NCBI GenBank assembly: GCA_005240145.1
Contig: SBAS01000088.1
Span: 68,925-112,716 of the forward strand
Direction of reading: 5' to 3'
Source: Nitrosomonadales bacterium
GTDB lineage: Bacteria; Pseudomonadota; Gammaproteobacteria; Burkholderiales; SG8-39
Length of the DNA stretch: 43,792 nucleotides
Each line of letters starts with the position of its first letter. Positions within the stretch are counted from its first letter, which is position 1. The notes beneath the pieces were generated by a model, which was not told where the DNA came from, did no database searches, and saw only the letters and a list, made by a program, of their open reading frames with translations. The position numbers and the translations under genes were made by a program. Shown here in pieces: positions 409 through 16,452 of this stretch.

Positions 409-1626
409 TTGGGCCGCGTTGCCTTTGTCCTGAAGGGCTATCCGCGGCTCTCCGAGACCTTCATCGCGCAGGAAATCGCCGCGCTGGAGCGCCGCGGCCT
501 GCAGATCCTGATCGTCTCGCTGCGCCATCCCACCGATGCGCGCCGCCATCCGGTGCACGAGGAAATCCGCGCAGCTCTGCTCTATCTGCCGGAGTATCTT
601 TACCAGGAACCGCTACGCGTTTTTCGTTCCTGGTGGGCACAGCGCAAGAAATCAAACTACCTCGCGGCCCGCAGCCTCTGGCTGCGGGACTTCCTGCGCG
701 ATCCAACGCCCAACCGCATCCGCCGTTTCGGCCAGGCGCTGGTGCTTGCCAGCGAGTTGCCGCGCGACGTGACGCGCCTGCATGCCCATTTCCTGCATAC
801 CCCGGCTTCGGTCACGCGCTACGCGGCGCTGCTCAGCGGGCTCGGCTGGACCGGCTCGGCGCATGCCAAGGACATCTGGACCACGCCGGAGTGGGAGAAA
901 CGCGAAAAGCTCGCGTCCTGCGAATGGCTCGTCACCTGCACGGCGGCGAACCACGCGCACCTCGCAGCGCTTGCTCCTGCGGACCGGGTGGAGCTGGTCT
1001 ATCACGGCCTGGATTTGTCCCGCTTTTCCTCCCTCGAGAAGAGCGGGGCAAAGCGAAACGGCAGCGACCCCGCGGACCCGGTCGTCATCCTCTCGGTCGC
1101 TCGCCTGGTGGAGAAGAAAGGCACCGACATCCTGCTCGAAGCGCTGGCGCGACTGCCAGCGCATCTGCATTGGCGGCTGGTGCACGCCGGCGGCGGACCG
1201 CTCAAGGACAGGCTCGAGCGGCATGCCCGCTCGCTCGGCATCGGCGCGCGTATCCAGTGGCGCGGCGCGTGCACGCAGACCGAACTGCTGGCCGCATACC
1301 GCGCCGCGGACCTGTTTGCGCTCGCCTCGCGCGTGGCGCGCGATGGCGACCGCGACGGCCTGCCCAACGTGCTCGCCGAAGCGCAAAGCCAGGGCCTCGC
1401 CTGCGTTGCGACCAGGGTTTCCGGGATTCCCGAACTGCTGGAGGACGGCCACACCGGGCTGCTGGTCGCGCCCGAGTCGCCCGGCGAGATTGCGCTTGCG
1501 CTCGCCGAGCTGATCGCCGATCCCGCGCGGCGCGGCACGCTCGGGGAAGCGGGGCGCCAGCGCGTGGCGAAGCACTTCGGCCTGGATGCGAACATTGCGC
1601 GCCTCGCGCACAAATTCGGCCTCTAG
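409..1626 (+). CDS. Glycosyltransferase family 4 protein
   Basis: The 405-residue protein opens with VAFVLKGYPRLSETFIAQEI, the typical N-terminus of GT-B glycosyltransferases often annotated as colanic-acid WcaL-like. The C-terminal half has VARLVEKKGTDILLEAL and then the E-x7-E type donor site (EAQSQG...GIPELLEDG), so both Rossmann lobes are present. It should transfer a sugar from a nucleotide donor to a lipid-linked or polysaccharide acceptor at the inner membrane. The start is TTG at 409, six bases after the previous stop; no better in-frame start gives the conserved N-terminus. It sits in the same run as three other transferases. Family is confident, specific linkage is not. Confidence 0.85.
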   Translation: MGRVAFVLKGYPRLSETFIAQEIAALERRGLQILIVSLRHPTDARRHPVHEEIRAALLYLPEYLYQEPLRVFRSWWAQRKKSNYLAARSLWLRDFLRDPTPNRIRRFGQALVLASELPRDVTRLHAHFLHTPASVTRYAALLSGLGWTGSAHAKDIWTTPEWEKREKLASCEWLVTCTAANHAHLAALAPADRVELVYHGLDLSRFSSLEKSGAKRNGSDPADPVVILSVARLVEKKGTDILLEALARLPAHLHWRLVHAGGGPLKDRLERHARSLGIGARIQWRGACTQTELLAAYRAADLFALASRVARDGDRDGLPNVLAEAQSQGLACVATRVSGIPELLEDGHTGLLVAPESPGEIALALAELIADPARRGTLGEAGRQRVAKHFGLDANIARLAHKFGL

Positions 1627-1636
1627 AATTCTCCCC

Positions 1637-2788
1637 ATGCGCATCGCTTTCTACGCGCCCCTGAAGTCACCGACGCATGGCACGCCCTCCGGCGACCGGC
1701 GCATCGCGGGTTTGCTGATGGACGCGCTCGGGCGCGCCGGACACCGCGTCGAACTCGCCGCCACCTTCCGCAGCTACGACGCCGGCGGCGACGCGCGGCG
1801 CCAGAGCGCGTTGCGCGAGCAGGGCATGGCGCTCGGCCGCCGGCTTGCCGAGCAGTGGGGCAAAGCTGCGCCCGCAGCGCGGCCCGACCTTTGGTTCACC
1901 TATCACGCGTATTACAAGGCGCCAGACTGGCTGGGACCCGGGGCGAGCGCGGCGCTGGGAATTCCCTACGTCGTCGCCGAAGCCTCGCATGCCGCGAAGC
2001 GCGCCGGCGGCGCCTGGGACGTCGGCCACCGCGGCACGATGGAGGCAATTCGCGCCGCCGATCTGCTCCTGTGCCCGACGCGCGACGACCAGGATGGCTT
2101 GCGCGAGCTGGCCGCCTCGCCCGCGCGCATCGTCTCATTGCCGCCGTTCCTCGATGCGGTGCCTTTTCGCGCTGCTGCGGCGCGCCGTGAGGCATGCCGC
2201 GAGGAGCTCGCGCGGGCACACGGGCTGGAGAGCTCGCAGCCCTGGCTTGCGGTTGCGGCGATGATGCGTCCAGGCGACAAGCTCGCCTCTTTTGCCGCGC
2301 TCGCACGCACGCTGGGACAGGTGCGGGATCTGCCCTGGCGGCTGCTGGTGGCGGGCGATGGCCGCGCGCGCGCCGAAGTCGAAGCGGCGCTCGGCGCCGC
2401 GATACCGGGCCGCGTAACGTTTCTGGGGGCGCTGCCGCTCGACCAGGTCGCGGCGCTCTACGCCGCGGCCGATCTTTGCGTCTGGCCCGCGGTGAACGAG
2501 GCCTATGGCATGGCGATGCTGGAAGCGCAGGCCGCCGGAGTGCCGGTGATTTCCTGCGCCACGCGTGGCGTGCCCGACGTGGTGGAGCACGGCCGCGGCG
2601 GTCTGCTCGCGCCCGCCGGCGACGAGCGCGCGCTCGCCGGTCTGGTGCGCGAGCTGCTCGTTGACGAAGCCAAACGCAGGCAGATGAGCGCCGCGGCGCT
2701 AGCCTTTACCGCCGGCGAGCGCAGCATTGATACGGCCGCGGCGCGGCTTGGGGGCCTGCTGGCCAGATTCAGCACGACGAGCGCTTGA
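1637..2788 (+). CDS. Glycosyltransferase family 4 protein
   Basis: A 383-residue GT-B protein. It begins MRIAFYAPLKSPTHGTPSGD, typical of GT4 enzymes, and its C-terminal lobe holds AADLCVWPAVNEAYGMAMLE, then QAAGVPVIS and GVPDVVEHG, the donor-binding loop. An open frame continues upstream to 1586, but only the ATG at 1637 gives the expected N-terminus. A TAGAAT hexamer at 1624-1629 lies seven bases before this ATG, so an internal promoter giving a nearly leaderless message is possible, although no good -35 is seen. The gene overlaps the next one by four bases. The sugar specificity is unknown. Confidence 0.84.
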   Translation: MRIAFYAPLKSPTHGTPSGDRRIAGLLMDALGRAGHRVELAATFRSYDAGGDARRQSALREQGMALGRRLAEQWGKAAPAARPDLWFTYHAYYKAPDWLGPGASAALGIPYVVAEASHAAKRAGGAWDVGHRGTMEAIRAADLLLCPTRDDQDGLRELAASPARIVSLPPFLDAVPFRAAAARREACREELARAHGLESSQPWLAVAAMMRPGDKLASFAALARTLGQVRDLPWRLLVAGDGRARAEVEAALGAAIPGRVTFLGALPLDQVAALYAAADLCVWPAVNEAYGMAMLEAQAAGVPVISCATRGVPDVVEHGRGGLLAPAGDERALAGLVRELLVDEAKRRQMSAAALAFTAGERSIDTAAARLGGLLARFSTTSA

Positions 2789-3957
2789 GCAAGCAACGCG
2801 CATTCTTCTACGTCCAGCACCTGCTCGGGATCGGCCACCTGAAGCGCGCGGTGACGCTTGCGCGCGCAATGGCCGCCACGGGGCTCGAGGTCACGCTGGC
2901 AAGCGGCGGCGCGCCGGTCGCGGGACTCGCGCCGGAAGGCGATTCGCGCGGCGTGCGCGTGGTACAACTGCCGCCGGCGAGCGCCCAGGACCTCAGTTTC
3001 AAAAGGCTCGTGGACGGCGAGGGCCGGCCCATCGACGAACAGTGGCAGGGCTTGCGCCGGGCCGCGTTGCTCGCGGCCTGGCGCGCCGCCGATGCGCAAG
3101 TGCTGGTGCTCGAGCTGTTTCCGTTCGGCCGCCGGCAGATGCGCTTCGAGCTGTTGCCGCTGCTCGAGGCCGCCAGCGTTGCAGCGCGTCGCCCTGCGAT
3201 CGCCTGCTCGGTGCGCGACATCCTTGGCGCGCAGAAAAGCGCTGCGCGCGAGGAGGAGACGATCGCATGGGTGGAGCGCTACTTCGATCGCGTGTACGTG
3301 CACGGCGATCCTGGCGTCATTGCTTTCGAACGGACTTTTCCCGGCGCGAGCCGCATTGCGAAGCGGATCGAGTACACGGGATACGTCGTCGAGGCCGCGC
3401 CAGTCGCAGCGGGCGATGCCGGCAAGGGTGAAGTCATCGTCTCCGCAGGAGGCGGGGCCGTGGGCGCGGCGCTGCTGGCGGCGGCGTTGCGGGCCAAACC
3501 GCTCACGGCCCTGCGCGCGCGGCGTTGGCGCGTACTTGCCGGCAACAACCTTCCCGATGCGGATTTTCGCGCTCTGGCAGGCCTGGCGGCTGAGGCAGGC
3601 GGCATCGAATTGGAACGTTCGCGGCCGGATTTCACCACGCTGCTCGGCAACTGCGAGCTCTCCATCAGCCAGGCGGGTTACAACACGCTGATGGAAACCA
3701 TCCGTGCTGGTGCGCGCGCCGTGGTGGTGCCCTTCGCCGGCGGGCACGAAACGGAACAAAGCCTGCGTGCGCGCTGCTTCGCCGAGCGCGGCCTGCTGGA
3801 ACTGGTGGAAGAAAGGGCGCTCGCGCCGCACACGCTCGCAGCCGCGATCGAACGAGCGATGCACAAGCCGCCGGCGCCGCCGCGCAGCATCAATCTCGAT
3901 GGCGCGCAGCACGCCGCGGAATCGATCGCACAACTGGCCCGGGGCGTAGCGGCGTGA
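2785..3957 (+). CDS. Predicted glycosyltransferase, COG4671/MurG-like
   Basis: A 390-residue protein starting at TTG 2785 inside the previous stop codon (TTGA overlap), which suggests translational coupling. The N-terminus FFYVQHLLGIGHLKRAVTLA has the Gly-His element found in MurG-like and COG4671 predicted transferases. The C-terminal lobe has ISQAGYNTLMETIRAGARAV followed by PFAGGHETEQ, the nucleotide-sugar site. It lacks membrane segments, so it should act in the cytoplasm or on the inner face of the inner membrane. It is related in layout to the truncated gene at the window start. The exact glycan made is unknown. Confidence 0.78.
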   Translation: MSKQRAFFYVQHLLGIGHLKRAVTLARAMAATGLEVTLASGGAPVAGLAPEGDSRGVRVVQLPPASAQDLSFKRLVDGEGRPIDEQWQGLRRAALLAAWRAADAQVLVLELFPFGRRQMRFELLPLLEAASVAARRPAIACSVRDILGAQKSAAREEETIAWVERYFDRVYVHGDPGVIAFERTFPGASRIAKRIEYTGYVVEAAPVAAGDAGKGEVIVSAGGGAVGAALLAAALRAKPLTALRARRWRVLAGNNLPDADFRALAGLAAEAGGIELERSRPDFTTLLGNCELSISQAGYNTLMETIRAGARAVVVPFAGGHETEQSLRARCFAERGLLELVEERALAPHTLAAAIERAMHKPPAPPRSINLDGAQHAAESIAQLARGVAA

Positions 3958-4715
3958 ATACGGCGTGGCAGGGATTCCTCGATGAGCTCGCACGCTGGCA
4001 CGACGCCGGGCGCGCGAGCGAATTCTGGTGGCGCGACGATGACGCCGCGCGGCCCGCTCGCGCGCTCGAGCGGCTCCTGGCGCTGTCGCAAGCGTCCGCC
4101 ACGCCGTTGGCGCTGGCGGTAGTTCCGCTGCTGGCCGAGAAGGCGATCTTCGAAAACGCGGGTCCCCTGGTATCGGTCCTGCAGCACGGCACCGATCATG
4201 TCAACCGCGCGGGGCCGCAGGAGAAGAAGACCGAGTTCAGTCCGGCCGAGGCGCCGGCCGCGGCGCTGGCACGGCTGGCCGCGGCGCGCCGGCAGCTCGA
4301 GGCGCTGGCCGGCAAGCGTTTTCTTGCGGTACTCGCCCCGCCCTGGAATCGCATGCCGCGAACGCTTGCGCCGCATCTCGCAGCGGCCGGCTACCGTGGC
4401 CTGAGCCAGTTTGGCGTGCGCACCGATGCCCAAGCCGCTCCCGGGCTGCGGCAAGTCAACACGCATGCGGACATCATCGCCTGGCGCGCGGGCCGCGGCT
4501 TTGCGGGCGAAAGCGAAGTCCTGGCCGCGGCGGTGCGCCACCTGGGGGCCAAACGCGCGGCACAGGCCGATGCGCACGAGGCCACCGGCTGGCTTACGCA
4601 CCATGCGATGCACGACGAGGCGGCCTGGGCGTTTCTCGAACGCTTGTTCGAAACGACGCGTCAGCAGCCCGGCGTGATCTGGCGGCGTGCTGAGGAACTA
4701 TTTCACGCCCCGTGA
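3954..4715 (+). CDS. Polysaccharide deacetylase-like protein
   Basis: A 253-residue protein that starts at GTG 3954, overlapping the preceding TGA by three bases. It has FWWRDDDA near residue 23, matching the Asp-Asp motif of divergent NodB-fold deacetylase-like proteins, then LQHGTDHVN, which fits the metal-binding His motif, and APPWNRMP, which fits the later motif around the substrate site. A late THHAMHD segment may supply the last His. By family knowledge such proteins remove N-acetyl groups from glycans. No signal peptide is visible, so it may act on cytoplasmic intermediates of the glycan made by its neighbours. The motifs are divergent, so the activity is an inference. Confidence 0.68.
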   Translation: MNTAWQGFLDELARWHDAGRASEFWWRDDDAARPARALERLLALSQASATPLALAVVPLLAEKAIFENAGPLVSVLQHGTDHVNRAGPQEKKTEFSPAEAPAAALARLAAARRQLEALAGKRFLAVLAPPWNRMPRTLAPHLAAAGYRGLSQFGVRTDAQAAPGLRQVNTHADIIAWRAGRGFAGESEVLAAAVRHLGAKRAAQADAHEATGWLTHHAMHDEAAWAFLERLFETTRQQPGVIWRRAEELFHAP

Positions 4716-5218
4716 GCCATTCCTATCGCTATTCGTGGCGGGCCCTGCTGCCTGATTATGCGGGCGGTGCGATCGGGTTCGCGCTCCCGCTCGGCGCGCT
4801 CGCTTGCGCGCATCCTGCCGCGCCCGTGGCGTGGGTTCTGGCTGCGGCGGCCGCATTATTCCTCGTATACTTTGCCCGTACGGTCTGCCGGCAATTGACC
4901 CACATAGAGTTGGACGAAACCGGAATCCGCGTCAGGGGACCCGCGTTGGGACCGCGCAGCGCCGCACTCCGGTGGGACGACCTGTGTTCGCTGCGGCTCG
5001 ACTACTACTCGACCCGCAGGGACCCGGAGGCAAGGACGGTGGAGGGAGGATGGATGCAGTTGAGGCTGCGCGGCGCAGGGCGCACGATCCGCATCGATTC
5101 GGAGCTCGAGGGCTTCCTCGAGCTGGTGCGCGCCGCATCCACCGAGGCGCGGCGCCGCGGCGCCGAGCTCGATTGGGCGACGCGCGCCAATCTTGGCGTG
5201 CTCGGCATGGCTGAATGA
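4712..5218 (+). CDS. Small membrane protein of unknown function
   Basis: A 168-residue protein with GTG start at 4712, overlapping the preceding stop. Residues about 17-55 form two hydrophobic segments (AGGAIGFALPLGALA, then VLAAAAALFLVYFA). The rest is a soluble domain with alternating beta strands (HIELDETGIRVRG, DLCSLRLDYY) of the kind seen in bacterial PH-like domains. I do not recognise a family. The stop overlaps the start of the ABC ATPase gene by four bases, so it is translated with both the glycan genes and the importer. Confidence 0.6.
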   Translation: MSHSYRYSWRALLPDYAGGAIGFALPLGALACAHPAAPVAWVLAAAAALFLVYFARTVCRQLTHIELDETGIRVRGPALGPRSAALRWDDLCSLRLDYYSTRRDPEARTVEGGWMQLRLRGAGRTIRIDSELEGFLELVRAASTEARRRGAELDWATRANLGVLGMAE

Positions 5219-7116
5219 GCGACGTTCTGCAGATCAGGGACCTGCGCGTCTACCTCGAGGTCGACGCGGGCACCGTCAAGGCCGTCGATGGCGTGTCGTT
5301 CCGCATTCCCGAAGGCGGCACCGTCGCCCTGGTGGGCGAGTCCGGCTCGGGCAAATCGATGGTGGCGCAGGCGATCATGAGCATCCTGCCGCGCGTTGCG
5401 CGCATCGAGAGCGGCGAGATCCTGTTCCTTGACCCGAAGAAGCCCGGCAGCGTGGTGGATATTTCGCGCCTCGACCCCGAGTCCGCCCAGGTGCGCGAAA
5501 TCCGCGGCGGCCGTATTTCGATCATCTTCCAGGAACCGATGACTGCGTTGTCGCCGCTGCACACGGTAGGCAACCAGATCGGGGAAGCGCTGATGCTGCA
5601 CCGCTCGAGCCTGGGCGCGGGCGAGCGCCGCGCCGCGGTGCTCGAGATGCTGCGCCTGGTCGGTTTTGCCGATCCGGTCAAGGCGGGGCACACCTATCCG
5701 TTCGAACTCTCCGGCGGCCTGCGCCAGCGCGCGATGATCGCCATGGCGCTGGTGTGCCGCCCGGCCCTGCTGGTCGCGGACGAGCCCACCACCGCGCTCG
5801 ACGTCACGATCCAGGCGCAGATCCTGCAACTGGTGCAGAGCCTGCAGTCCGAACTGAAAATGGCGATGCTGCTGATCACGCACGACCTGGGCATCGTCGC
5901 CAACATGGCCGAAGAGGTTGTCGTGATGTATCACGGCAAGGTCGTGGAGTCGGGGACGCTGCAGGATATTTTCCGCGACCCGCGCCATCCGTACCTGAAG
6001 GCGCTGATGCGCGCCGTGCCGCGCTTCAACATGGCGCCGGGCGAGCGCCTGACGCCGATTCGCGAGGTGAGCGCCGCCACCGACCACCTGATCTCCGGCC
6101 GCGGCCGGCCGCAAGGCGAGAACTTGAGCGGCGATGCGCTGCTGACGGTGCGCAACCTCACCAAGCGCTTCGAGACGCGCAAGACCTCGTTCTTCGGCCG
6201 CAAGCTCGCGGGCGAAGTGCGCGCGGTGGACGACGTGAGCTTCCACGTCGCCTCGGGCGAATGCCTGGGACTGGTGGGCGAGTCGGGCTGCGGCAAGACC
6301 ACCACCGCCAAGATGATCCTGCGCTCGGCCACTCCGGACAGCGGTGAAATCATCTTCAACGATCGCGGCACCGCGCGCAACGTGCTCGCGCTGAAGGGAG
6401 CGGACCTGTTCGCCTACCGGCGCAAGGTGCAGTTCGTGTTCCAGGACCCCTTCAGCTCGCTCAACCCGCGCATGACGGTGCAGGACATCGTCGCCGAGCC
6501 ACTCGTGATCCACGGCGTCGGCGATGCCGAGGAGCGCTTCGCGCGGGTCAAGGAACTCATGACGCTGGTCGCCCTGGACGTGCGCTACCTGCGGCGCTAT
6601 CCGCACAGTTTCTCGGGCGGCCAGCGCCAGAGGATCGGCATTGCCCGTGCGCTGGCGCTCGGTCCCGAACTGCTCATTTGCGACGAGCCGGTCTCGGCGC
6701 TCGACGTATCGGTCCAGGCGCAGGTGCTCAACCTCCTGCTGGACCTGAAGGCCGCGCTCAACCTGACTTACATCTTCATCTCCCACAACCTGGCGGTGGT
6801 GCATTACCTCGCCGACCGGATCGCGGTGATGTGCGCCGGCCGCATCGTCGAGCTCGCGCCCTCCAGCGAGCTGTTCCGCAATCCGGTGCACCCCTACACC
6901 AAGGCGCTGCTCGCCGCGGTGCCGGACCCGGATCTGGACCGCAAGCTCGATTTTGCCGCGCTCATGGAGGGCAAGGCCTCCGACCCGCGCGCCTGGCCCG
7001 CGCCGTTCCGCCTCGATGGGCAGGCAAGCAGTAGCGATGCGATCATGCTGGATATCGGCGACAAACACCTGGTGCGCGCGCATGCGGGCGCCGACATGTC
7101 GGAGCTCAGATCATGA
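5215..7116 (+). CDS. Peptide-type ABC transporter, fused double ATPase subunit
   Basis: A 633-residue protein with two complete nucleotide-binding domains in tandem. Domain 1 has Walker A GESGSGKS at residues 41-48, signature LSGGLRQR and Walker [13 protein letters not shown]. Domain 2 has Walker A GESGCGKT from residue 355, signature FSGGQRQR and Walker [13 protein letters not shown]. Each domain ends with the HPYLKAL or HPYTKAL element typical of oligopeptide/dipeptide/nickel importers, and the fusion matches the YejF class. It powers uptake through the two permeases encoded at 9016 and 10056. The first signature has Leu where Gln is usual (GGLRQR). The start overlaps the previous stop (ATGA). 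Confidence 0.92.
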
Positions 7117-9008
7117 TGCGCTGGCTGGTATTTCTGGTTTTCCCCACGGCGTTGGCCGGCGCCGCGGCGCAGGCCGCGGCGCAGGGAAAGTTCATCGAGC
7201 CGCCCGTGCTCGCCGAGCAGATCAAGGCCGGCAAGCTGCCGCCGGCGGCGAAGCGCCTGCCCGAGACGCCGCTGGTGTTCAAGCCGGCGGCGGGGCAGGA
7301 GGCGGGCAAGCACGGCGGCGACCTGAGCATGCTGATCGGGCGCAGCCGCGACGTGCGCATGCTCGTGGTGTACGGCTATGCGCGCCTCGTCGGCTACGAC
7401 GCGAATTTCAGTATCGTTCCCGACATCCTCGAGAGCATCGACGCCAAGGGCGAGCGGGTGTTCACGATGAAGTTGCGCAAGGGGCACCGCTGGTCCGACG
7501 GCCAGCCGTTCACCAGCGACGACTTCCGCTATTTCTGGGACGACGTTGCCAACAACAAGGAACTCAGCCCGACGGGACCGCCCACCGACCTGCTGGTGAA
7601 CGGCGAGCCGCCCAAAGTCGAAATCCTCGACAAGCAGACCGTGCGCTACAGCTGGTCGAAACCGAATCCGGATTTCCTGCCGCGCATGGCGGGCGCCTCG
7701 CCGCTGTTCATTTTCCGGCCGGCGCACTACCTGAAGAAATTCCACCGCAAGTACAACCCGAACGCGGGAGGGGCGCAGGCGGGCGCGGCCGTGAAGCGCG
7801 GCTGGGCCGCCGTGCACAACCGCGAAGACAACATGTACCAGTTCGACAACCCGGCGTTGCCGACGCTGCAGCCCTGGATGAACACCACCAAGCCGCCGGC
7901 GGACCGGTTCGTGGCGGTGCGCAATCCGTACTTCCACCGCGTCGATGCGGAGGGCCGCCAGCTGCCCTACATCGATCGCGTGGTGATGGCGGTGGCCGAG
8001 AGCAAGCTGATCCCGGCCAAGACCGGCGCCGGCGAATCCGACCTGCAGGCGCGCGACATCCAGTTCAACAACTACACCTTCCTGAAAAAAGGCGAGAAGA
8101 CCAACAACTACCGCACGCTGCTGTGGAAAACTGCGCGCGGCGCGCATTTCGCGCTTTATCCGAACCTCAACGTGAACGATCCCGTCTGGAAGGCGCTGTT
8201 CCGCGACGTGCGCTTCCGCCGTGCGCTGTCGCTCGCCATCGATCGCTCGCAGGTGAACCAGGTGCTGTATTTCGGCCTCGCCACCGAGGGCAACAATACG
8301 GTGGTGGCCGAGAGTTCGCTCTACAGGAAGGAGTACCAGTCGCTCTGGGCGAAATACGACAAGAAGGCGGCCGCGAAGCTGCTCGACGATATCGGCCTCG
8401 CGCGCGGCGCGGACGGCGCGCGCAAGCTGCCCGATGGCCGGCCGCTGGAAATCATCGTCGAGACGGCTGGCGAGAGCACCGAGCAGACCGACGTGCTGGA
8501 GATGATCCGCGAAAACTGGCGCGAGATCGGCATCAAGCTCTTCGCGAAGCCCACGCAGCGCGAGGTGCTGCGCAACCGCGTCTTCTCGGGCGAGGCGCTG
8601 ATCTCGGTCTGGAGCGGAATCGAGAACGGCCTTGCCAATCCGGACATCAGTCCCGAGGAACTCGCGCCCATCAGCCAGCAGCAGCTGCAGTGGCCGAAGT
8701 TCGGCCAGCATTTCGAAACCGGCGGCAAGGCAGGCGAGGCGCCCGATATCGCCGAGGCGGTCGAGCTGATGAAGCTGAACAGCCGGTGGCGCGAGGCGCC
8801 GACGCGCGAGGAGCGCGCGAAGATCTGGCACCGCATGCTGCAGATCCATGCCGAACAGCAGTTCGCGATCGGCGTGATCGCCGGCGTGGCGCAGCCGATC
8901 GTGGTGCGCAATTCGCTCAGGAACGTGCCCGAGAAGGGGATCTACAACTGGGATCCGGGCGCGCTCTTCGGCATCTACCGGCCCGATACCTTCTGGTTCA
9001 GCAAGTAA
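7113..9008 (+). CDS. ABC transporter periplasmic substrate-binding protein, family 5
   Basis: A 631-residue protein with a signal peptide (hydrophobic LVFLVFPTALAG followed by an AAAQAAAQ cleavage region). The mature part follows the SBP family 5 pattern: a GGDLSMLIGRSRD N-terminus, LRKGHRWSDGQPFTSDD, then DVRFRRALSLAIDRSQVN, which is the family hallmark. It should capture a peptide or peptide-like ligand in the periplasm for the importer encoded around it; the length and fused ATPase fit the YejA group. It overlaps the ATPase gene by four bases and lies seven bases before the first permease. The actual ligand is not predictable. Confidence 0.9.
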   Translation: MMRWLVFLVFPTALAGAAAQAAAQGKFIEPPVLAEQIKAGKLPPAAKRLPETPLVFKPAAGQEAGKHGGDLSMLIGRSRDVRMLVVYGYARLVGYDANFSIVPDILESIDAKGERVFTMKLRKGHRWSDGQPFTSDDFRYFWDDVANNKELSPTGPPTDLLVNGEPPKVEILDKQTVRYSWSKPNPDFLPRMAGASPLFIFRPAHYLKKFHRKYNPNAGGAQAGAAVKRGWAAVHNREDNMYQFDNPALPTLQPWMNTTKPPADRFVAVRNPYFHRVDAEGRQLPYIDRVVMAVAESKLIPAKTGAGESDLQARDIQFNNYTFLKKGEKTNNYRTLLWKTARGAHFALYPNLNVNDPVWKALFRDVRFRRALSLAIDRSQVNQVLYFGLATEGNNTVVAESSLYRKEYQSLWAKYDKKAAAKLLDDIGLARGADGARKLPDGRPLEIIVETAGESTEQTDVLEMIRENWREIGIKLFAKPTQREVLRNRVFSGEALISVWSGIENGLANPDISPEELAPISQQQLQWPKFGQHFETGGKAGEAPDIAEAVELMKLNSRWREAPTREERAKIWHRMLQIHAEQQFAIGVIAGVAQPIVVRNSLRNVPEKGIYNWDPGALFGIYRPDTFWFSK

Positions 9009-9015
9009 TCCCCGC

Positions 9016-10059
9016 ATGCTGACGTACACGATCCGGCGGCTGCTGATCATGATTCCGACGCTGCTCGTGATCAGCCTGGTCACCTTCAGCATCATCAAGC
9101 TGCCGCCGGGAGACTTCCTCTCCAACCAGATTGCGGAACTGCGCAGCCAGGGCGACAAGGCGGCGCTGGAGCGCGCCGAGTTCATGCGCGCCCAGTTCGG
9201 CCTCGACAAGCCCTTCATGGAGCAGTACGCGGTGTGGGTCGGGATCTGGCCCGCGGCACGCGGTACTTCCGGCGAGCGGGGCTACTCGGGCCTGCTGCAG
9301 GGCGACTGGGGCTGGTCGTTCGAGCACGACCTGCCGGTCTCGGAGGTGATCGGCGATCGCATGCTGCTGTCGTTCATCCTCAACCTGACCGTGGTGATGT
9401 TCACCTGGGCGATCGCGTTCCCGATCGGCGCCTATGCCGCGACCCACCAGTACAGTTGGGGCGACTACGGCCTGACGCTGCTCGGCTACGTCGGCCTCGC
9501 AACGCCGAACTTCCTCTTCGCGCTGGTGCTGATGTATTTCGCCAACGTCCAGTTCGGGCTCGCGATCGGCGGCATCATGGATCCGGAGTACCTCGACAAG
9601 GCCTGGAGCTGGGCCAAGTTCGGCTCAGTGTTGAACCACCTCTGGATTCCCGTCATCGTCATCGGCACCTCGGGCACCGCGGCGATGATCCGGCGGCTGC
9701 GCGCCAACCTGCTGGATGAATTGCAGAAGCAGTACGTGGTCACCGCGCGCGCCAAGGGCATGCCGCCTTTCCGCCTGCTGGTGAAGTACCCGCTGCGCAT
9801 GTCGCTCAACCCGTTCATCGCCGACATCGGCAACCTGCTGCCTTCCGTCATATCGGGTTCGGCGATCGTCGCCGTCGTGCTCTCGCTGCAGACCTCGGGC
9901 CCGATGCTGCTCGAGGCGCTGCGCAGCCAGGACCAGTACCTCGCCGGTTCCTTCCTCATGTTCCTCGCGCTGCTGACGGTGATCGGCATGTTCGTTTCCG
10001 ACCTGCTGCTGGCGATGCTCGACCCGCGCATCCGCCTCACCGGAGGCGTGGCGAAATGA
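9016..10059 (+). CDS. Peptide-type ABC transporter permease, DppB/YejB-like
   Basis: A 347-residue inner-membrane permease. The N-terminus MLTYTIRRLLIMIPTLLVIS is the standard first helix of DppB/OppB-type subunits. The cytoplasmic loop VVTARAKGMPPFRLLVKYPL is the EAA-type loop that contacts the ATPase. About six transmembrane helices are visible. It forms the channel with the permease encoded next, whose start overlaps this stop (ATGA). The stretch GQWARG-like seen in many DppB proteins is replaced here by a longer periplasmic loop around residues 75-100. Confidence 0.9.
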   Translation: MLTYTIRRLLIMIPTLLVISLVTFSIIKLPPGDFLSNQIAELRSQGDKAALERAEFMRAQFGLDKPFMEQYAVWVGIWPAARGTSGERGYSGLLQGDWGWSFEHDLPVSEVIGDRMLLSFILNLTVVMFTWAIAFPIGAYAATHQYSWGDYGLTLLGYVGLATPNFLFALVLMYFANVQFGLAIGGIMDPEYLDKAWSWAKFGSVLNHLWIPVIVIGTSGTAAMIRRLRANLLDELQKQYVVTARAKGMPPFRLLVKYPLRMSLNPFIADIGNLLPSVISGSAIVAVVLSLQTSGPMLLEALRSQDQYLAGSFLMFLALLTVIGMFVSDLLLAMLDPRIRLTGGVAK

Positions 10060-11222
10060 GCACAACACCGGAGACGCGCCTCGCGCATTACGTCGCCACC
10101 GAGCCCTTCGAGCCGCTCGCGACCGAGACGCTGACGCCCGAGCAGGAACGCTTCTACCGCGCCTCGCAGTGGAAGATCATGTGGTGGAAATTCCGGCGCC
10201 ACAAGGTGGCGCTGATTTCGGCCTGGGTGCTGGCGTTCTTCTATGCCTCGATCCTGGTGAGCGAGGTGCTGTCGCCCTACAACCTGCATTCGCGCGACAC
10301 GCGCCATATCTACGCGCCGCCGCAGGAATTGCACCTGTTCCACGAAGGAAAGTTCGTCGGTCCCTTCGTCTACGGCTTCAGCATGGAGCTGAATACCCAG
10401 ACCATGCGCCGCGAGTTCCGGCCCGATGCGGGCAAGGTGCAGGCGCTGCGCTTCTTCTGCCGCGGCGACAGCTATGAGTTCTGGGACTTGTTCGAGGCGC
10501 AATTCCACCTCGTCTGTCCCGCCGAAGACGGCACCTTCTTCCTCTTCGGCACCGACCGGCTCGGCCGCGACGTGCTCTCGCGCATCATCCACGGCACGCG
10601 CATTTCGCTCACTGTGGGCCTGCTCGGCATCGCCGTGAGTTTCATCATCGGCATCACGCTGGGCGGAATCTCCGGCTATTACGGCGGCTGGATCGACACC
10701 GCCATCCAGCGCTTCATCGAGATGGTGCGATCGTTTCCGGAGCTGCCGCTGTGGATGGCGCTCTCGGCCGCGCTGCCCATCAACTGGAGTCCAGTGCTGG
10801 TCTATTTCGGCATCACCATCATCCTGGGCCTGCTCGACTGGCCGGGCCTGGCGCGCGCGGTGCGCTCGAAGCTGCTTGCGCTACGCGAGGAGGAGTTCGC
10901 CAGCGCCGCGGTGCTGATGGGCGCGACGCCGCAACGCGTGATCGCGCGCCACCTGCTGCCGAGTTTCGCCAGCCACCTCATCGCCTCGCTCACCCTCTCG
11001 GTGCCGAGCATGATCCTCGGCGAAACCGCACTGTCCTTCCTCGGCCTCGGCCTGCGCCCGCCGGTGACGAGCTGGGGCGTGCTGCTGAATGAAGCGCAGA
11101 ACATCAACGTGGTCGCGCTCTACCCCTGGCTGATGCTGCCCGTGGTGCCCGTATTCACCGTGGTGCTGGCCTTCAACTTCTTCGGCGACGGCCTGCGCGA
11201 CGCCGCGGATCCGTACAAGTAG
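10056..11222 (+). CDS. Peptide-type ABC transporter permease, DppC/YejE-like
   Basis: A 388-residue permease with a cytoplasmic N-terminus of about 35 residues, a first helix after WWKFRRHK, a long periplasmic segment (about residues 65-165), then about five helices. The EAA loop reads EEFASAAVLMGATPQRVIAR, and GTDRLGRDVLSRIIHGTRIS before helix 2 is a DppC-family hallmark. The long periplasmic insert and order after the YejB-like subunit fit YejE. It pairs with the 9016 gene product. The last base of its stop is the first base of the next start. Confidence 0.9.
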   Translation: MSTTPETRLAHYVATEPFEPLATETLTPEQERFYRASQWKIMWWKFRRHKVALISAWVLAFFYASILVSEVLSPYNLHSRDTRHIYAPPQELHLFHEGKFVGPFVYGFSMELNTQTMRREFRPDAGKVQALRFFCRGDSYEFWDLFEAQFHLVCPAEDGTFFLFGTDRLGRDVLSRIIHGTRISLTVGLLGIAVSFIIGITLGGISGYYGGWIDTAIQRFIEMVRSFPELPLWMALSAALPINWSPVLVYFGITIILGLLDWPGLARAVRSKLLALREEEFASAAVLMGATPQRVIARHLLPSFASHLIASLTLSVPSMILGETALSFLGLGLRPPVTSWGVLLNEAQNINVVALYPWLMLPVVPVFTVVLAFNFFGDGLRDAADPYK

Positions 11223-12265
11223 TGCCGGGCGGCCGGAACAATTTCGACTTCCTTCGGCTGCTTGCCGCCGGACTGGTCCTGGTAAGCCATCTATACCCCC
11301 TTACCGGCGTGAAGGACGATCGCCTTCTGACCTATGTGAATTCGCTGGGCCTGGGCATGGTGGGCATCTCGATCTTCTTCGTCATCAGCGGTTATCTCGT
11401 AATGCAGAGCTGGACCCGGGATCCGGACCCGTTGCGCTATGCGGCACGACGCGCATTGCGCATCTATCCGGCGCTGGTCGTTGTCGTCCTCATGACGATG
11501 TTCGTTCTCGGTCCGCTGGTCACCAGCCTGCCGCTCCTGCAATACTTTCAGCAGCCCCGTTTTGTCGGCTATCTCAACGTCCTGCTGCTTTTCCCGATGC
11601 CTTACGTGCTGCCGGGCGTGTTTGCCAGCAATCCTCTCCCGGGCGCGGTAAACGGTTCTCTCTGGACGCTGCCTTATGAAGTGACGATGTATCTATTGCT
11701 TGCCCTGGTTGCACTGACGCGGCTGAAGGAGAGCGCCGTGTTCTGGGTTGGCATCACGGCGCTTCTCGTATTCGCAGCGACGACCTATCGCGGCTCCGCA
11801 ACCCAGGGACCGACGATCTTGTTCATCGGCGCGATGGAGTTCTGCTACCTGGGAGCATTCTTTTTCTACGGCGTCGCAGTGGCAAAGCTGCAAGAAAGAA
11901 TGGGTTCGCCCCGGCTGTCATGGGCGGCGGTGTTTCTCGCGCTATTGATGCTCACCTGGCAGACGGAATGGTCGGATCTTCTGCGTCATCTGCTGCTTGG
12001 ATACGTCGTCATCGCTGTCGGTGTCCGGAGCACGCCATGGCTGTCCGCCGCCAGTCGGCACGGCGACTTTTCCTACGGCATCTATATCTACGCGTTTCCG
12101 GTCCAGCAGACCCTTGTTCACTTCGGCATCGGGTCGGGAAGTGTTCTGCTGAACCTGATGTACCTGGTCATCATTACCCTCGTCTTCGCCGTGTTGTCAT
12201 GGATCTTTGTGGAAAGGCGGGCATTGCTCTTGAAACCATCAAAGCCTGGTGCGGCGGAGCTTTAG
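11222..12265 (+). CDS. Acyltransferase family 3 (OafA-like) membrane protein
   Basis: A 347-residue polytopic protein. The first helix NNFDFLRLLAAGLVLVSHLY carries the conserved Arg and His of acyltransferase-3 proteins, and about ten hydrophobic helices follow. Members move acetyl or other acyl groups onto extracytoplasmic glycans. The start is GTG, sharing its first base with the preceding stop. It is the last gene of the co-directional run and would fit O-acylation of the glycan made by the genes at 2-4715. Its base composition seems less GC-rich than its neighbours (for example around 11660-11900), so it may have been acquired separately. Confidence 0.87.
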   Translation: MPGGRNNFDFLRLLAAGLVLVSHLYPLTGVKDDRLLTYVNSLGLGMVGISIFFVISGYLVMQSWTRDPDPLRYAARRALRIYPALVVVVLMTMFVLGPLVTSLPLLQYFQQPRFVGYLNVLLLFPMPYVLPGVFASNPLPGAVNGSLWTLPYEVTMYLLLALVALTRLKESAVFWVGITALLVFAATTYRGSATQGPTILFIGAMEFCYLGAFFFYGVAVAKLQERMGSPRLSWAAVFLALLMLTWQTEWSDLLRHLLLGYVVIAVGVRSTPWLSAASRHGDFSYGIYIYAFPVQQTLVHFGIGSGSVLLNLMYLVIITLVFAVLSWIFVERRALLLKPSKPGAAEL

Positions 12266-12298: not shown

Positions 12299-13147
12299 TC
12301 AGGGCGTCAGAACCAGGCCCTCGCGTGCCAGGACCGCGCCCGGCATTGCTGCTTCGACCTCCCTCGCGATGCCGTCGAGCCGCTCATCGTCGTGGTCCGG
12401 GTCGTGGTGGAACACCACCAGCTTCTTCGCGCCGGCGGACTTGCACAGGCGCACGGCTTCCTGCCAGGTCGAGTGTCCCCAGCCGACGTAGGATTTCGCG
12501 TACTCCTCGTCGGTGTACGTGCAGTCGTAGATCACGATGTCGGCGCCGGCGATGAGCGCGAGCACGCCGCGGTCAGGAATGCCGGGCAGATGCTCGGTAT
12601 CGGTGACATAGCAGATCGACTTGCCAGCGAACTCGATGCGGTAGCCGGTCGCGCCGTCGGGGTGGTTGAGCGCCGCCGTGCGCACGACGATCCCCGCCGC
12701 AGGCGCGAGCGTCTCGCCGCCGCTGAAGTCGCGGTATTCCATGTTCGCCTTGAATACTTCGGGCGGCACCGGAAACAGCGGCGCCGCCATGAACTCGCGC
12801 AGCACGCGCTGCAGCGTCATGCCCGCGCCCAGGTGCCCGGCCCAGAGCCGGAAGGCGTTCTGCGGCTGGAAGAACGGCTTGAAGAAGGGCAGGCCGCAGA
12901 CATGGTCAAAATGCGTGTGCGTGAAGAAGATGTCGGCCTCGACCGGGGCTTCGGCCACCAGCCGGTTGCCGAGGTAGCGCATGCCGGTGCCGGCGTCGAG
13001 CAGGATGAGCCGCGTGCCGCAGCGCACCTCGATCGATGAGGTGTTGCCGCCATAGCGCGCGGTCGCGGCGCCCGGCGTGGCGATGCTGCCGCGCACGCCC
13101 CAGAACCGAACCAGGAAATCGCCCCCTGCAGTTTTCCCCGCGCTCAC
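12299..13147 (-). CDS. MBL-fold hydrolase, cyclic-phosphodiesterase-like
   Basis: The protein has VRFWGVRGSIATPG near the N-terminus, a YGGNTSSIEVRCG segment and the metal site FTHTHFDHVCGLPFF, followed by later His/Asp ligands around VTDTEHLPG and VFHHDPDHDD. This is the metallo-beta-lactamase fold of the PhnP/cyclic-phosphate phosphodiesterase type. The GTG at 13147 is chosen because it leaves about 50 bases for divergent promoters; the frame stays open through an ATG at 13198 and one at 13222, which would run into the divergent gene's start. It faces away from an ABC-like gene followed by a cyclic-nucleotide-binding gene, so a role in nucleotide signalling is tempting but unproven. Confidence 0.82.
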   Translation of the reverse strand: MSAGKTAGGDFLVRFWGVRGSIATPGAATARYGGNTSSIEVRCGTRLILLDAGTGMRYLGNRLVAEAPVEADIFFTHTHFDHVCGLPFFKPFFQPQNAFRLWAGHLGAGMTLQRVLREFMAAPLFPVPPEVFKANMEYRDFSGGETLAPAAGIVVRTAALNHPDGATGYRIEFAGKSICYVTDTEHLPGIPDRGVLALIAGADIVIYDCTYTDEEYAKSYVGWGHSTWQEAVRLCKSAGAKKLVVFHHDPDHDDERLDGIAREVEAAMPGAVLAREGLVLTP

Positions 13148-13196
13148 GGCCGATACTTTGGCACGAACCCGCGCCGCTTGCACTATGATCCTTGCC

Positions 13197-15917
13197 ATGG
13201 AACGGTCCCTGTTCGCGTTCATCTTCCGCTACAGCAAGCGCGAACAACTGCTGATCGTGCCGCTGGTCGTCGCCTCGATGCTGATCTATTTCTCGATGCT
13301 CGACCTGCCCAAGGCGATCATCAACGAGGCGATCCAGGGCAAGCGCTTCCCGGTGCCGGAGGCCACGGTGGCGTTCATGAAACTGCACTTCAGCCTGCCC
13401 GGTTTCCTCGGCGGCGGCCAGGTGCAGCTGTTCGACGGTTTCGCGCTCCACCAGCTGCCCTACCTGTTTGCGCTGACCTTCGCGTTCCTCACTCTGATCG
13501 TGGTCAACGGCGGCCTGAAGTTCCAGATCAACACCATGAAGGGCTGGCTCGGCGAGCGCATGCTGCGGCGCCTGCGCTACGCCCTCTTTGACCGCATCCT
13601 GCGCTTCCCGCTCGCCCGCTTCCGGCGCGTCAAGTCGGCCGAACTGTCCACCATGATCAAGGACGAGGTCGAGCCGCTGGGCGGTTTCGTCGGCGAATCG
13701 ATGATCACGCCGCTGTTCCTCGCCGGCGAGGCGCTCACGGCGATGTTCTTCATCCTCTACCAGCATGTCTATCTGGGGCTGATCGCGATCGGCGTAGTGG
13801 GCGCGCAGGCGCTCATCATCCCGAAGCTGCGCCGGCGGCTGCTCGTGCTCGCCAAGGCGCGCCAGCTCGGCGCGCGCCAGCTCTCCGGAAGGATCGCCGA
13901 GGTCGCCGACGGCGTGATCGAAGTGCACGCCCACGACACCTCGAACTACGAGCGCGCCGAGATCTCCTCGCGCCTGGGCACGATCTTCCGCATCCGCTTC
14001 GAGTTCTACCAGCGCAAGTTCATGATCAAGTTCCTCAACAATTTCCTCTCCCAGGTGGGCCCGTTCCTGTTCTACCTGGTGGGCGGCTACCTGGTGATCG
14101 CAGGCAGCCTGGACATCGGCACGCTGGTGGCCGTGATCGCGGCCTACAAGGACCTGCCCAGCCCGATCAAGGAACTCATCGACTGGGACCAGCAGCGCCT
14201 CGACGTGCAGATCAAGTACACGCAGGTGGTCGAGCAGTTCACGGACGAGGACATGATGCCGGCCGAATTGCAGGCGCCGGTTCCCGCGCCGCAACTGCCC
14301 AGCGCGGGCAAGCTGCGCGTGTCCAACCTGACGCTGGCGGGCGAGGCGGGATCGAAGCTGATCGATGGCGTCTCCTTCGAAGTCGGTCTCGACCAGCACG
14401 TCGCGATCCTCGGTTCCCACGCTGCGGGCGTCGCCGAACTGACGCAGATGCTCGCGCGCCTGGTGGTGCCTAGCAGCGGCCAGATCGACGTCGGCGGTAC
14501 CGACATGATCAAGGCGCCCGAGGCGGTCACGGGCCGCGCCATGGCCTACGTCGGCCCTGCGGCCTACCTCTTTCCGACCAGCGTGCGCGACAACCTGCTC
14601 TACGGACTCAAACACCATCCGCTGAGCGAGCGGACCTACGAAGGCAAGGCGCTGAAGGAATTCGATTTCCAGATGAGCGAGGCAAAGCGCACCGACAGCA
14701 CATTGCTTGATTTCCACGCCGACTGGACCGACTACCAGGCCGCGGGCGCGTCCAGTCCGCAGGAAATCGAAACACGCATCGTCGAAGTCCTCAAGACCGT
14801 CGAACTGGAGGAAACCATATTCGAACTCGGCTTGCGCAGCGCGGTCGACGCGGCAGACCATCCCGGCCTGGCCGAAAGCGTGCTGCGCGCGCGCGAGTCG
14901 ATCCGCGCGCGGCTTGCGGCGCCCGGCATGCAGGGGCTGGTCGAGCAGTTCGACGCCGGGCGCTATAACCGCAACGCGACGCTGGCGGAGAACCTGCTCT
15001 TTGGCACGCCCATCGGCAAGAAGATCTTCGACATCGAGAACCTGGCGGGCAACGAGTACGTGCGCCGCGTGCTGCGCGAGACGGGTCTCGCCGACGATCT
15101 GCTCAAGACCGGGCACAAGCTGGCCGAGACGATGGTCGAACTCTTCAGCGGCCTGGCGCCGGGACACGAGTTCTTCGAGCGCTTCAGCTTCATCAAGCAG
15201 GACGACCTGCCGGAGGTGAAGGCGGTGCTCGGCCGCGTGGCCGACGCCGGCCCGGAAAAGATCGAGGCGGTCGACCGCGACCTGCTCATGGCGCTGCCAT
15301 TCAAGCTGATTTCCGCCCGCCACCGCCTCGGCCTCATCGACGAGGCTTTCGAAGCGCGCATCCTGCGTGCGCGGCGCCACTTCGCCGAACAGCTGCCGGC
15401 GGACATGCGGGGCGGAATCGAATTCTTCGACGCGGCGCGCTACAACGGCGCGGCGACGCTGCAGGACAACATCCTGTTCGGCAAGGTCGCCACCGGCCAG
15501 GCGCAGGCCGGCAACCGTATCGCCGCCATGCTGCATGAGGTGCTCGAGGAGCTGAAACTGCGGCCGCAGGTGGCCTCGATCGGACTGGGCTACCAGGTCG
15601 GGGTCGGCGGCGCGCGGCTTTCCTCCGCCGACCGGCAGAAGGTCGCGATCGCGCGCGCGCTGCTCAAGCGCCCGGTGGTGCTGATCCTCGACCAGGCGGC
15701 GGCGGTCCTCGACGGGGCTGCGCAGAACCGCATCGTGACGAGCATCCTCGAGTCGCGCACAGGAAGCAGCGTCTTCTGGGCCTTGCAGCGCAACGACCTC
15801 GCCGAGCGCTTCGGCCATACGCTGGTGATGGAGCGGGGGCGCCTCGCCGAGCAGGGCCTGTTCGCCGACCTGAAGAGCAGCGGCGGCGCGCTGCACAAGA
15901 TGTTGAACGCCGGATAA
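13197..15917 (+). CDS. Large ABC exporter-like protein with degenerate ATPase domain
   Basis: A protein of about 906 residues. Residues 1-340 form a six-helix ABC-exporter-type membrane domain. The nucleotide-binding domain starts near residue 375. Its Walker A position (from residue 406) reads GSHAAGVAE instead of GxxGxGKS/T. The signature is LSSADRQK at 808, Walker B is VVLILDQ with Gln833 in place of the catalytic Glu, and the H-loop reads FWALQRND with Gln for His. Between the first Q-loop-like segment and the signature lie about 300 extra residues holding a duplicated block. The protein may therefore bind but not hydrolyse ATP. ATG 13197 is chosen over 13185. A cyclic-nucleotide sensor gene follows 11 bases after the stop. 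Confidence 0.85.
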   Translation: MERSLFAFIFRYSKREQLLIVPLVVASMLIYFSMLDLPKAIINEAIQGKRFPVPEATVAFMKLHFSLPGFLGGGQVQLFDGFALHQLPYLFALTFAFLTLIVVNGGLKFQINTMKGWLGERMLRRLRYALFDRILRFPLARFRRVKSAELSTMIKDEVEPLGGFVGESMITPLFLAGEALTAMFFILYQHVYLGLIAIGVVGAQALIIPKLRRRLLVLAKARQLGARQLSGRIAEVADGVIEVHAHDTSNYERAEISSRLGTIFRIRFEFYQRKFMIKFLNNFLSQVGPFLFYLVGGYLVIAGSLDIGTLVAVIAAYKDLPSPIKELIDWDQQRLDVQIKYTQVVEQFTDEDMMPAELQAPVPAPQLPSAGKLRVSNLTLAGEAGSKLIDGVSFEVGLDQHVAILGSHAAGVAELTQMLARLVVPSSGQIDVGGTDMIKAPEAVTGRAMAYVGPAAYLFPTSVRDNLLYGLKHHPLSERTYEGKALKEFDFQMSEAKRTDSTLLDFHADWTDYQAAGASSPQEIETRIVEVLKTVELEETIFELGLRSAVDAADHPGLAESVLRARESIRARLAAPGMQGLVEQFDAGRYNRNATLAENLLFGTPIGKKIFDIENLAGNEYVRRVLRETGLADDLLKTGHKLAETMVELFSGLAPGHEFFERFSFIKQDDLPEVKAVLGRVADAGPEKIEAVDRDLLMALPFKLISARHRLGLIDEAFEARILRARRHFAEQLPADMRGGIEFFDAARYNGAATLQDNILFGKVATGQAQAGNRIAAMLHEVLEELKLRPQVASIGLGYQVGVGGARLSSADRQKVAIARALLKRPVVLILDQAAAVLDGAAQNRIVTSILESRTGSSVFWALQRNDLAERFGHTLVMERGRLAEQGLFADLKSSGGALHKMLNAG
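14880..15482 (+). repeat. Internal duplication within the ABC-like gene
   Basis: Two blocks of about 42 residues, 14880-15005 (residues 562-603) and 15360-15482 (722-762), share the pattern [VI]LRAR, then FDA-x-RYN, then ATL-x2-N-[IL]-LFG. They also match at DNA level (cgacgcc versus cgacgcg, then gcgctataac versus gcgctacaac). A third, weaker copy of the last part (SVRDNLLYG, residue 465) is at the normal place in the ATPase domain. The segment after the Q-loop seems to have been copied within one gene. Confidence 0.75.
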
Positions 15918-15928
15918 GGAGAAAAACC

Positions 15929-16384
15929 ATGAGCCTGGAGCAGGAATTCGAATTGATCCGGCGCGTGCCGATTTTCAGCACCACGGACCCGGCAATGCAG
16001 AAGCTGCTCGCCTTCAGCAGCGACCGCCTGACCTACGATGAGGGCCAGATCATGTTCAGCGCCGGCGACCCCCCCGACAGCGCTTATATCGTCATGGAAG
16101 GCGAAGTCGACATCACCGTGCCGACGCCGAAGGGCGCGCTGCTCGTGAATACGCTGACGCGCAACGACGTGATCGGCGAAATCGGCATCTTCGGCGATGT
16201 GCCGCGCACGGCGACCGCCGTCGCGCGCACGCGCGTGGAGGCGCTGCGCATCTCGCGCGACGTGTTCGTCAACGTAATTCGCAGCAACCCCGACGCCGCA
16301 ATCGCGCTGGTGAAAATCCTCGCCGACCGGCTGGCCAAGACCACCGCGCAACTGCGCCGCATGGCCGCCGAGGGCGGCAGGTAG
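15929..16384 (+). CDS. Stand-alone cyclic-nucleotide-binding domain protein
   Basis: A 151-residue protein made almost entirely of one CRP-type cyclic-nucleotide-binding fold. The phosphate-binding cassette is VIGEIGIFGDVPRTATAV, with Gly83-Glu84 for the ribose and Arg93-Thr94 for the cyclic phosphate, all intact. A C-terminal helix (residues 110-150) follows, and there is no helix-turn-helix, so it is not a DNA-binding CRP regulator. A GGAGAA ribosome-binding site precedes the ATG. It lies 11 bases downstream of the ABC-like gene and is probably co-transcribed, so it may sense cAMP or cGMP for that membrane protein. Confidence 0.88.
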   Translation: MSLEQEFELIRRVPIFSTTDPAMQKLLAFSSDRLTYDEGQIMFSAGDPPDSAYIVMEGEVDITVPTPKGALLVNTLTRNDVIGEIGIFGDVPRTATAVARTRVEALRISRDVFVNVIRSNPDAAIALVKILADRLAKTTAQLRRMAAEGGR

Positions 16385-16452
16385 AAAAACAGGGACAGAC
16401 CACGTTTTCCCTGCCGCTGTTGTCCAAAAAACGTGGCCTGTCCCTGTTTTTC
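16384..16452. terminator. Long bidirectional hairpin between convergent genes, REP-like
   Basis: Left arm 16384-16408 and right arm 16428-16452 are complementary at 24 of 25 positions, with a 19-base loop. Both ends carry A/T runs (aaaaac... and ...gttttt), so each strand reads as a rho-independent terminator. It fills the gap between the stop of the cyclic-nucleotide protein (+) and that of apaG (-) exactly. The core GGGACAGACCACG resembles repeated hairpins I associate with betaproteobacterial genomes, which would make it a REP-type element; that part is recollection, not shown here. Confidence 0.8.

Follow-up and report, generated by a model that had tools for sequence, protein, structure and literature searches.

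Does a stand-alone cyclic-nucleotide-binding (CNB) protein control the ABC exporter-like membrane protein that is encoded directly before it, and does a neighbouring MBL-fold hydrolase belong to the same system? The question is raised by a locus in a stretch of 43,792 nucleotides from a Nitrosomonadales bacterium, which is called the window here at its full length. The original prediction was that the CNB protein gates or senses for the membrane protein and that the hydrolase may remove the signal. The locus has the following core:

12299..13222, minus strand: MBL-fold hydrolase, PDE/RNase Z-like (Pfam, NCBIfam, metal-site alignment); start codon uncertain
13197..15917, plus strand: ABC exporter-like membrane protein with a degenerate ATP site, 906 aa, starting with ATG at 13197
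13470..14138, plus strand: transmembrane-domain match PF00664 (ABC residues 92-314)
15929..16384, plus strand: stand-alone CNB protein, 151 aa (Pfam)

The three genes lie where they had been predicted, as open reading frames and Pfam domains confirm a divergent MBL gene, the ABC gene and a CNB gene that starts 11 bases after the ABC stop. In the Pfam comparison, the ABC frame scores 56 bits with PF00664 and 52.8 bits with PF00005 (both above cut-off), the CNB frame 76.8 bits with PF00027 (cut-off 27.5) and the MBL frame 90.7 bits with PF12706 (cut-off 27). The first ATG of the divergently read MBL gene overlaps the ABC start by 26 bases, and the true MBL start is thus uncertain. The ABC gene is present as a single copy in its own genome, where the next match reaches 57 bits compared to 1980 bits. 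About 2 kb before the window (G000 C104:66448-66807) there is another ORF with a CNB match, in an open frame of 390 aa.

To describe the neighbourhood of the ABC gene, we examined 104 loci, which comprise the best 80 of 339 stretches from named genome contigs and 24 stretches from 21 genomes of a phylum sample. These are 21 of the 26 genomes in that sample, besides the window's own, that bear the ABC-CNB module; G394, G410, G456, G551 and G630 were left out. Matches to the module occur in at least 2 of 200 genomes of the order, at least 32 of 98 genomes of the family and at least 27 of 398 genomes of the Pseudomonadota sample, all of them lower bounds as scoring was restricted to the top candidates of an initial pass. 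Furthermore, 262 plasmid records have matches, among them 144 from Rhizobium and 80 from Sinorhizobium. Homologues are found in the laboratory strains Sinorhizobium meliloti 1021 (pSymB 841723-844432) and Rhizobium etli CIAT 652, and in Ruegeria. Where the listed plasmid records are annotated, the ABC protein is named 'ABC transporter', and a fused copy in Ruegeria sp. B32 is annotated as a cyclic nucleotide-binding domain-containing protein. One contig titled Anaerolineae (L064) closely resembles a contig titled Alphaproteobacteria (L061) and is probably misbinned.

We observed that the CNB gene follows the ABC gene within 0.7 kb in 92 of the 104 loci and is fused to it in the same frame in nine. 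The two are thus adjacent or fused in 101 loci, and in the other three the contigs stop inside the ABC gene, 0-2 bases past the ABC match. Fusions are present in L065, L080, L179 and L181-L186, and also in Ruegeria sp. TM1040. On a tree of 101 loci, with the three incomplete loci left out, parsimony requires two changes between the fused and the separate state. In L077, a methyltransferase gene lies between ABC and CNB. The fusion at L065:8001-11552 carries about 140 additional C-terminal residues that look GGDEF-like by eye. Some genomes have two copies of the module, both fused in G372 (L179, L183) and G402 (L182, L184) and both separate in G322 (L178, L180).

If the two genes were chance neighbours with unrelated functions, neither the fusions nor the adjacency in 101 of 104 loci would be expected; this explanation is refuted by both, and we consider it extremely improbable. 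For the MBL gene, a chance neighbourhood may still apply in any single genome. The predicted working link between the CNB protein and the membrane protein, which may be one of gating, is, in turn, strongly supported, and the sequence comparison gives good support for a coupling of the two. We infer that the CNB protein docks on the ABC protein, as other explanations can hardly account for fusion and strict adjacency. The AlphaFold model of the L080 fusion lends no support to docking, because its CNB part is poor (block means below 60 pLDDT).

Whether the CNB protein can respond to a cyclic nucleotide depends on its phosphate-binding cassette:

16175..16213, plus strand: CNB phosphate-binding cassette, residues 83-95 (alignment)

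In the window protein this cassette is intact (GEIGIFGDVPRTA) and includes Glu84 and Arg93, so that a PF00027 score and the cassette Glu and Arg, by which we recognize a CNB protein, are found together. Pfam detects no further domain above its cut-off in the 151 aa, and a C-terminal DNA-binding domain of the CRP/FNR type is absent at the Pfam cut-off. An intact cassette without a DNA-binding domain had been predicted, and both parts are confirmed. Among 77 cassette sequences (the window and 76 relatives), Arg and Ala are present in 77, Thr in 74, Glu in 73 and Asp in the place of Glu in 4. The 24 phylum-sample stretches, which are distant or fused, have Arg in 23, Glu in 18 and Asp in 5, Ala in 17 and Thr in 13. 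Tyr replaces the cassette Arg in L175, Val replaces the Glu in L176, and L179 and L181-L184, all of them fused, deviate at the Thr-Ala positions; cyclic-nucleotide binding is therefore doubtful in these loci.

Because the cassette is retained in the window group and in most relatives, a cyclic nucleotide is the putative ligand. The cyclic-nucleotide link of the original prediction is thus supported by the cassette, and some loci add to this support by having a class III cyclase nearby. The ligand could be other than cAMP or cGMP, or there could be none. In the latter direction points an explanation in which the CNB fold serves purely as a docking subunit, the cyclic nucleotide is no signal and the MBL and cyclase genes reflect general clustering. 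Such a structural adaptor would fit with the altered cassettes of some distant or fused copies and with MBL and cyclase genes near a minority of loci, and a ligand is unreadable from sequence. However, a pure adaptor would not need the conserved Arg or the conserved Glu/Asp (each in 77/77 and 23/24 sequences), and loci linked to a cyclase occur on several branches. We therefore think that a purely structural role is improbable.

The ABC protein was predicted to be exporter-like, and its fold was modelled with AlphaFold from an alignment of 61 rows (pLDDT 83.9, pTM 0.78). Foldseek and VIA-align put the model among the type IV exporters. The ComA NBD aligns over its full length (239 of 239 residues; Z 28.8, rmsd 1.7 A). 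As this alignment spans model residues 365-904, the NBD is complete and has roughly 265 residues in addition. According to the model, the window ABC protein is a type IV (MsbA-like) exporter in fold, with a complete NBD plus an insertion. The exporter-like character thus stands, with two additions that concern the NBD: a degenerate ATP site and a large insertion that bears a repeat. The relevant features are, in the order of the gene:

14412..14435, plus strand: degenerate Walker A, residues 406-413, GSHAAGVA, without Lys and without Ser/Thr at the canonical places
14541..14609, plus strand: Q-loop segment, copy 1, residues 449-471, ...SVRDNLLYGL, without the Q-loop Gln
14622..15422, plus strand: NBD insertion, about residues 476-742 (structural alignment)
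14949..15005, plus strand: segment copy 2, residues 585-603, ...NATLAENLLFG (profile comparison)
15426..15482, plus strand: segment copy 3, residues 744-762, ...AATLQDNILFG (profile comparison)
15609..15638, plus strand: degenerate signature motif, residues 805-814, GARLSSADRQ, with LSSAD for LSGGQ (motif alignment)
15681..15695, plus strand: Walker B, residues 829-833, LILDQ, with the catalytic Glu changed to Gln833

Furthermore, the Q-loop position of the window protein is Pro and the H-loop position is Gln864. We compared these motifs across 108 sequences, which include the window and six loci of the family sample that overlap others in species. The Walker A Lys is retained in 42 of the 108 and is followed by Ser/Thr in five; the Walker B Asp is found in 48/108, the catalytic Glu in 47/107, the Q-loop Gln in 13/108 and the H-loop His in 28/108. 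Lys, Asp and Glu are combined only in L039, L185 and L186, and the latter two, which are fusions, retain Lys, Ser, Asp and Glu. ATP binding may thus persist in a part of the family, as 42 sequences keep the Lys and L185/L186 have near-complete motifs.

These data bear on the explanation that the protein is an ATP-driven glycan or lipid exporter (MsbA/PglK-like) in which the CNB protein acts as an allosteric brake or accelerator and the motif changes slow the cycle. The exporter fold, the glycosyltransferase neighbours described below and the partly retained motifs in relatives are consistent with it, and MsbA is the best NCBIfam match of the window protein. Yet this match reaches 157.8 bits, far from the cut-off of 602 bits of the MsbA equivalog (TIGR02203). 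The window protein has the fold of an ATP-hydrolysing exporter but lacks the Walker A Lys and Ser/Thr, the catalytic Glu, the Q-loop Gln, LSGGQ and the H-loop His, and few relatives combine Lys with Ser/Thr. An ATP-driven exporter is thus an unlikely but serious alternative. It is likely, judging from the motifs, that the ABC protein of the window group is no longer run by ATP; for relatives with Lys and Glu, the loss of ATP drive is uncertain.

The insertion alone matches neither a PDB sequence nor a Pfam family at E values up to 10, a sequence comparison that carries no information on its fold. Within the protein, a profile comparison revealed segment 555-725 to be a repeat of segment 720-835 (E 1.2e-14, 35 percent identity, 78 columns), and the Q-loop segment 435-500 has a weaker similarity to the repeated segments. 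When comparing the three copies with hhalign, copies 2 and 3 are strongly similar (E 1.2e-14, probability 98 percent). The similarity of copies 1 and 3 is moderate (E 5.5e-5, 66 percent; short form E 2.1e-6, 89 percent) and that of copies 1 and 2 is weak (E 0.0012, 19 percent; short form E 7.1e-5, 63 percent, 18 columns). The profiles thus give firm grounds for a duplicated helical segment of the NBD, and its triplication is likely. Asn599 inside the insertion and Asn758 and Gly762 just past it are invariant in all 108 sequences; many residues of the transmembrane domain are likewise invariant in the 61-row alignment.

To see if the hydrolase is a constant part of the system, we compared the occurrence of MBL and class III cyclase genes near the ABC gene. 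Within 2.5 kb, an MBL gene is present in 19 of the 104 loci, a class III cyclase in 21 and both in nine. When counting is limited to the 79 loci that extend 1.8 kb or more to either side, 14 have the MBL gene and 19 the cyclase. The 30 closest loci (L009-L038) include 12 with MBL, which corresponds to 12 of 27 testable loci as L010, L012 and L032 have less than 50 bases upstream. The density per 10 kb is higher near the ABC gene than far from it, both for MBL (0.403 compared to 0.012) and for cyclases (0.467 compared to 0.050), where the far values may be undercounted as the two nearest matches per locus were kept, and the loci are related. Parsimony on the tree of 101 loci yields five changes for MBL and nine for the cyclase, which is fewer than in any of 200 shuffles. 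This suggests that MBL and cyclase genes have for the most part been passed on as neighbours within clades, and this on several branches. In the window group the MBL gene is read divergently; it lies downstream and in the same direction in L079, L166, L167, L170, L172, L174 and L177. The co-directional order ABC, CNB, MBL, cyclase is found in L079, L172 and L177. A class III cyclase also lies within 2.5 kb of the ABC gene in L175 and L176, the two loci with an altered cassette Arg or Glu.

Of the prediction that the three genes stay together, the ABC-CNB part holds (101/104), whereas the MBL gene is near in some clades only (19/104). One fixed unit of three genes is therefore rejected with regard to MBL, both in all loci and in those with sufficient flanks (14/79). 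MBL and cyclase are optional members of the module, and MBL is accessory.

The predicted removal of the signal by the hydrolase has a similarly mixed outcome. His102, His104, Asp106, His107, His187, Asp208 and His272 are retained in 21 of 21 aligned MBL proteins; they comprise HxHxDH and the further metal ligands of an MBL-fold phosphodiesterase (PF12706). This metal site and the three four-gene rows are in favour of the prediction. On the other hand, MBL is found in 19 of 104 loci, and the window protein stays below the NCBIfam cut-offs for PhnP (TIGR03307, 33.7 of 272.25 bits) and for the cyclic nucleotide-degrading phosphodiesterase (NF041851, 46.3 of 400 bits). Hydrolysis of the signal by MBL is thus plausible. 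As to the source of a signal, class III cyclases are present in 30 of 30 module-bearing genomes tested compared to at least 259 of 396 genomes of the phylum sample, a comparison that is uncorrected for kinship and in which the sample contains module-bearing genomes too. None of the at least 11 cyclase matches in the window genome is on the window contig C104.

What the module might act on can be approached from its surroundings:

409..11222, plus strand: GT4, GT4, GT28-like, a protein without Pfam match, a small ORF and an oligopeptide-type importer (context)
16384..16452, no strand: 25-nt inverted repeat after the CNB gene, possible terminator or dispersed palindrome

The upstream cluster is co-directional with the ABC gene, and its importer consists of fused ATPases, a substrate-binding protein (SBP) and two permeases. 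The protein without Pfam match looks deacetylase-like by eye, and an acyltransferase (PF01757) gene at 11222-12265 ends the cluster. Where 7 kb or more is available upstream, 20 of 21 close relatives have importer genes in their stretch, and 31 of 32 more distant loci have genes for glycosyltransferases or an importer; these counts refer to L009-L088, use approximate ORF clusters and include a cluster anywhere in the fetched stretch. In Rhizobium etli and R. leguminosarum the order is importer, glycosyltransferases, ABC, CNB. S. meliloti has a similar region, in which a methyltransferase gene precedes ABC and a cyclase is about 12 kb upstream (incomplete annotation). For the names redA/redB beside the R. 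etli homologue, we found nothing relevant in the open-access literature. In 41 of 104 loci, the ABC gene has a gene for a PF12692-type methyltransferase no more than 2.5 kb away; it is downstream of CNB in L018, L041, L058 and others, and may be a further member of the module. The gene content of the surroundings suggests that a cell-surface glycan or peptide is moved or sensed.

The bidirectional terminator that was predicted to close the unit is real as a 25-nt inverted repeat, with arms at 16384-16408 and 16428-16452 that are 96% complementary and separated by 19 nt. A scan permitting loops of 3-8 only detected no consensus terminator there. A 19-base piece of the arm occurs at four places in the genome (this one included) compared to none for the backwards control, so the repeat may be a dispersed palindrome, which is as likely as a terminator.

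The combination of cyclase, CNB receptor, membrane effector and an MBL off switch also resembles Pycsar-like defence. The CNB protein scores 39 bits and a neighbouring cyclase 53 bits with the PADLOC Pycsar models, and the MBL fold is common to enzymes that degrade cyclic nucleotides (PMC9117128). However, the Pycsar effector models match the CNB domain only, a cyclase is absent near most loci, and glycosyltransferases and importers form the context. We thus regard a defence function as very unlikely.

We conclude that the locus is probably a cyclic-nucleotide-responsive membrane module, in which an ATPase-poor ABC protein would be switched by the CNB protein. Based on the sequence comparisons, we assign this reading a probability of roughly 0.56. 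Class III cyclases would make cAMP or cGMP, and the CNB subunit would bind to the ABC protein, whose motifs for ATP hydrolysis are lost or weakened. A nucleotide on the CNB protein would then alter its contact with the NBD, and the altered contact would switch the membrane part, either between conducting or transporting states or between a partner-bound and a free form. Where present, MBL would lower the signal by hydrolysing the cyclic nucleotide. Ligand binding, the physical contact of ABC and CNB, the direction of control, the MBL substrate and the transported molecule are predicted elements of this scheme. A narrower version is that of a cyclic-nucleotide-gated ABC protein that has lost ATP hydrolysis, where cAMP or cGMP on a CNB subunit or fused CNB domain, placed on the duplicated (probably triplicated) NBD segment, would drive or gate the membrane part, and cyclase and MBL would complete a local glycan or peptide circuit. 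We put this version forward tentatively, as a possibility at well below even odds.

ABC exporters are defined by ATP. If the module works as proposed, an eroded ATP site, a conserved segment and a CNB partner would together constitute a new way to power or gate the ABC fold. Furthermore, Alpha- and Betaproteobacteria would gain a concrete membrane target for cAMP or cGMP.

Lastly, we compared the module to known systems. Its parts come from known families. In the open-access literature that we searched, there was no description of the ABC-CNB module or of a degenerate exporter that combines an NBD insertion bearing a repeat with a constant CNB partner. The MsbA2 operon of S. meliloti has an ABC exporter beside glycosyltransferases, as is the case here. 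In the portions of the two sources available, this operon (SMb21188-SMb21191) consists of four genes with an acyltransferase first, and a CNB protein is unmentioned (PMC3687685, PMC12239276). We rejected msbA2 as the homologue because a fragment of SMb21188 lies near 938 kb of pSymB and the homologue at 841723; as the homologue sits elsewhere on pSymB, the symbiosis phenotype of msbA2 is not transferred to it. SMb20813 is a possible name of the pSymB homologue (841723-844432). One paper gives SMb20813 as the counterpart of E. coli msbA in S. meliloti.

The class II (MBL-fold) cyclic nucleotide phosphodiesterases, such as YhfI and Apyc1, have the HxHxDH site and the fold family in common with the window MBL protein (PMC9117128); compared to them, the window protein is below the curated cut-offs and its substrate is a predicted one. 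Pycsar systems and the cyclase-bearing loci share a cyclase and a CNB receptor. They differ in that the effector here would be an ABC exporter homologue in a glycan and importer context, with a window contig that has no cyclase.

In NHLP-type systems, a CNB protein is associated with a bacteriocin-type transporter. The families of this export type (TIGR03896, TIGR03796/97) likewise name a CNB protein with such a transporter; in comparison, the window CNB protein scores 29.7 of 161.05 bits (TIGR03896) and the ABC protein 132.1 of 853.3 bits, and Pfam detects no peptidase domain in the window ABC protein. CFTR and SUR are ABC proteins that turned into a channel or a channel regulator, and SUR chains are among the top structural matches of the window ABC model. 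However, both keep ATP control, and cAMP acts on CFTR via a kinase and not via a bound CNB subunit. With the type IV exporters MsbA, TM287/288 and Sav1866, the window ABC protein has the transmembrane domain and the NBD fold in common, whereas it differs from them by its degraded ATP motifs, an insertion of about 265 residues with a repeat, and a CNB partner.
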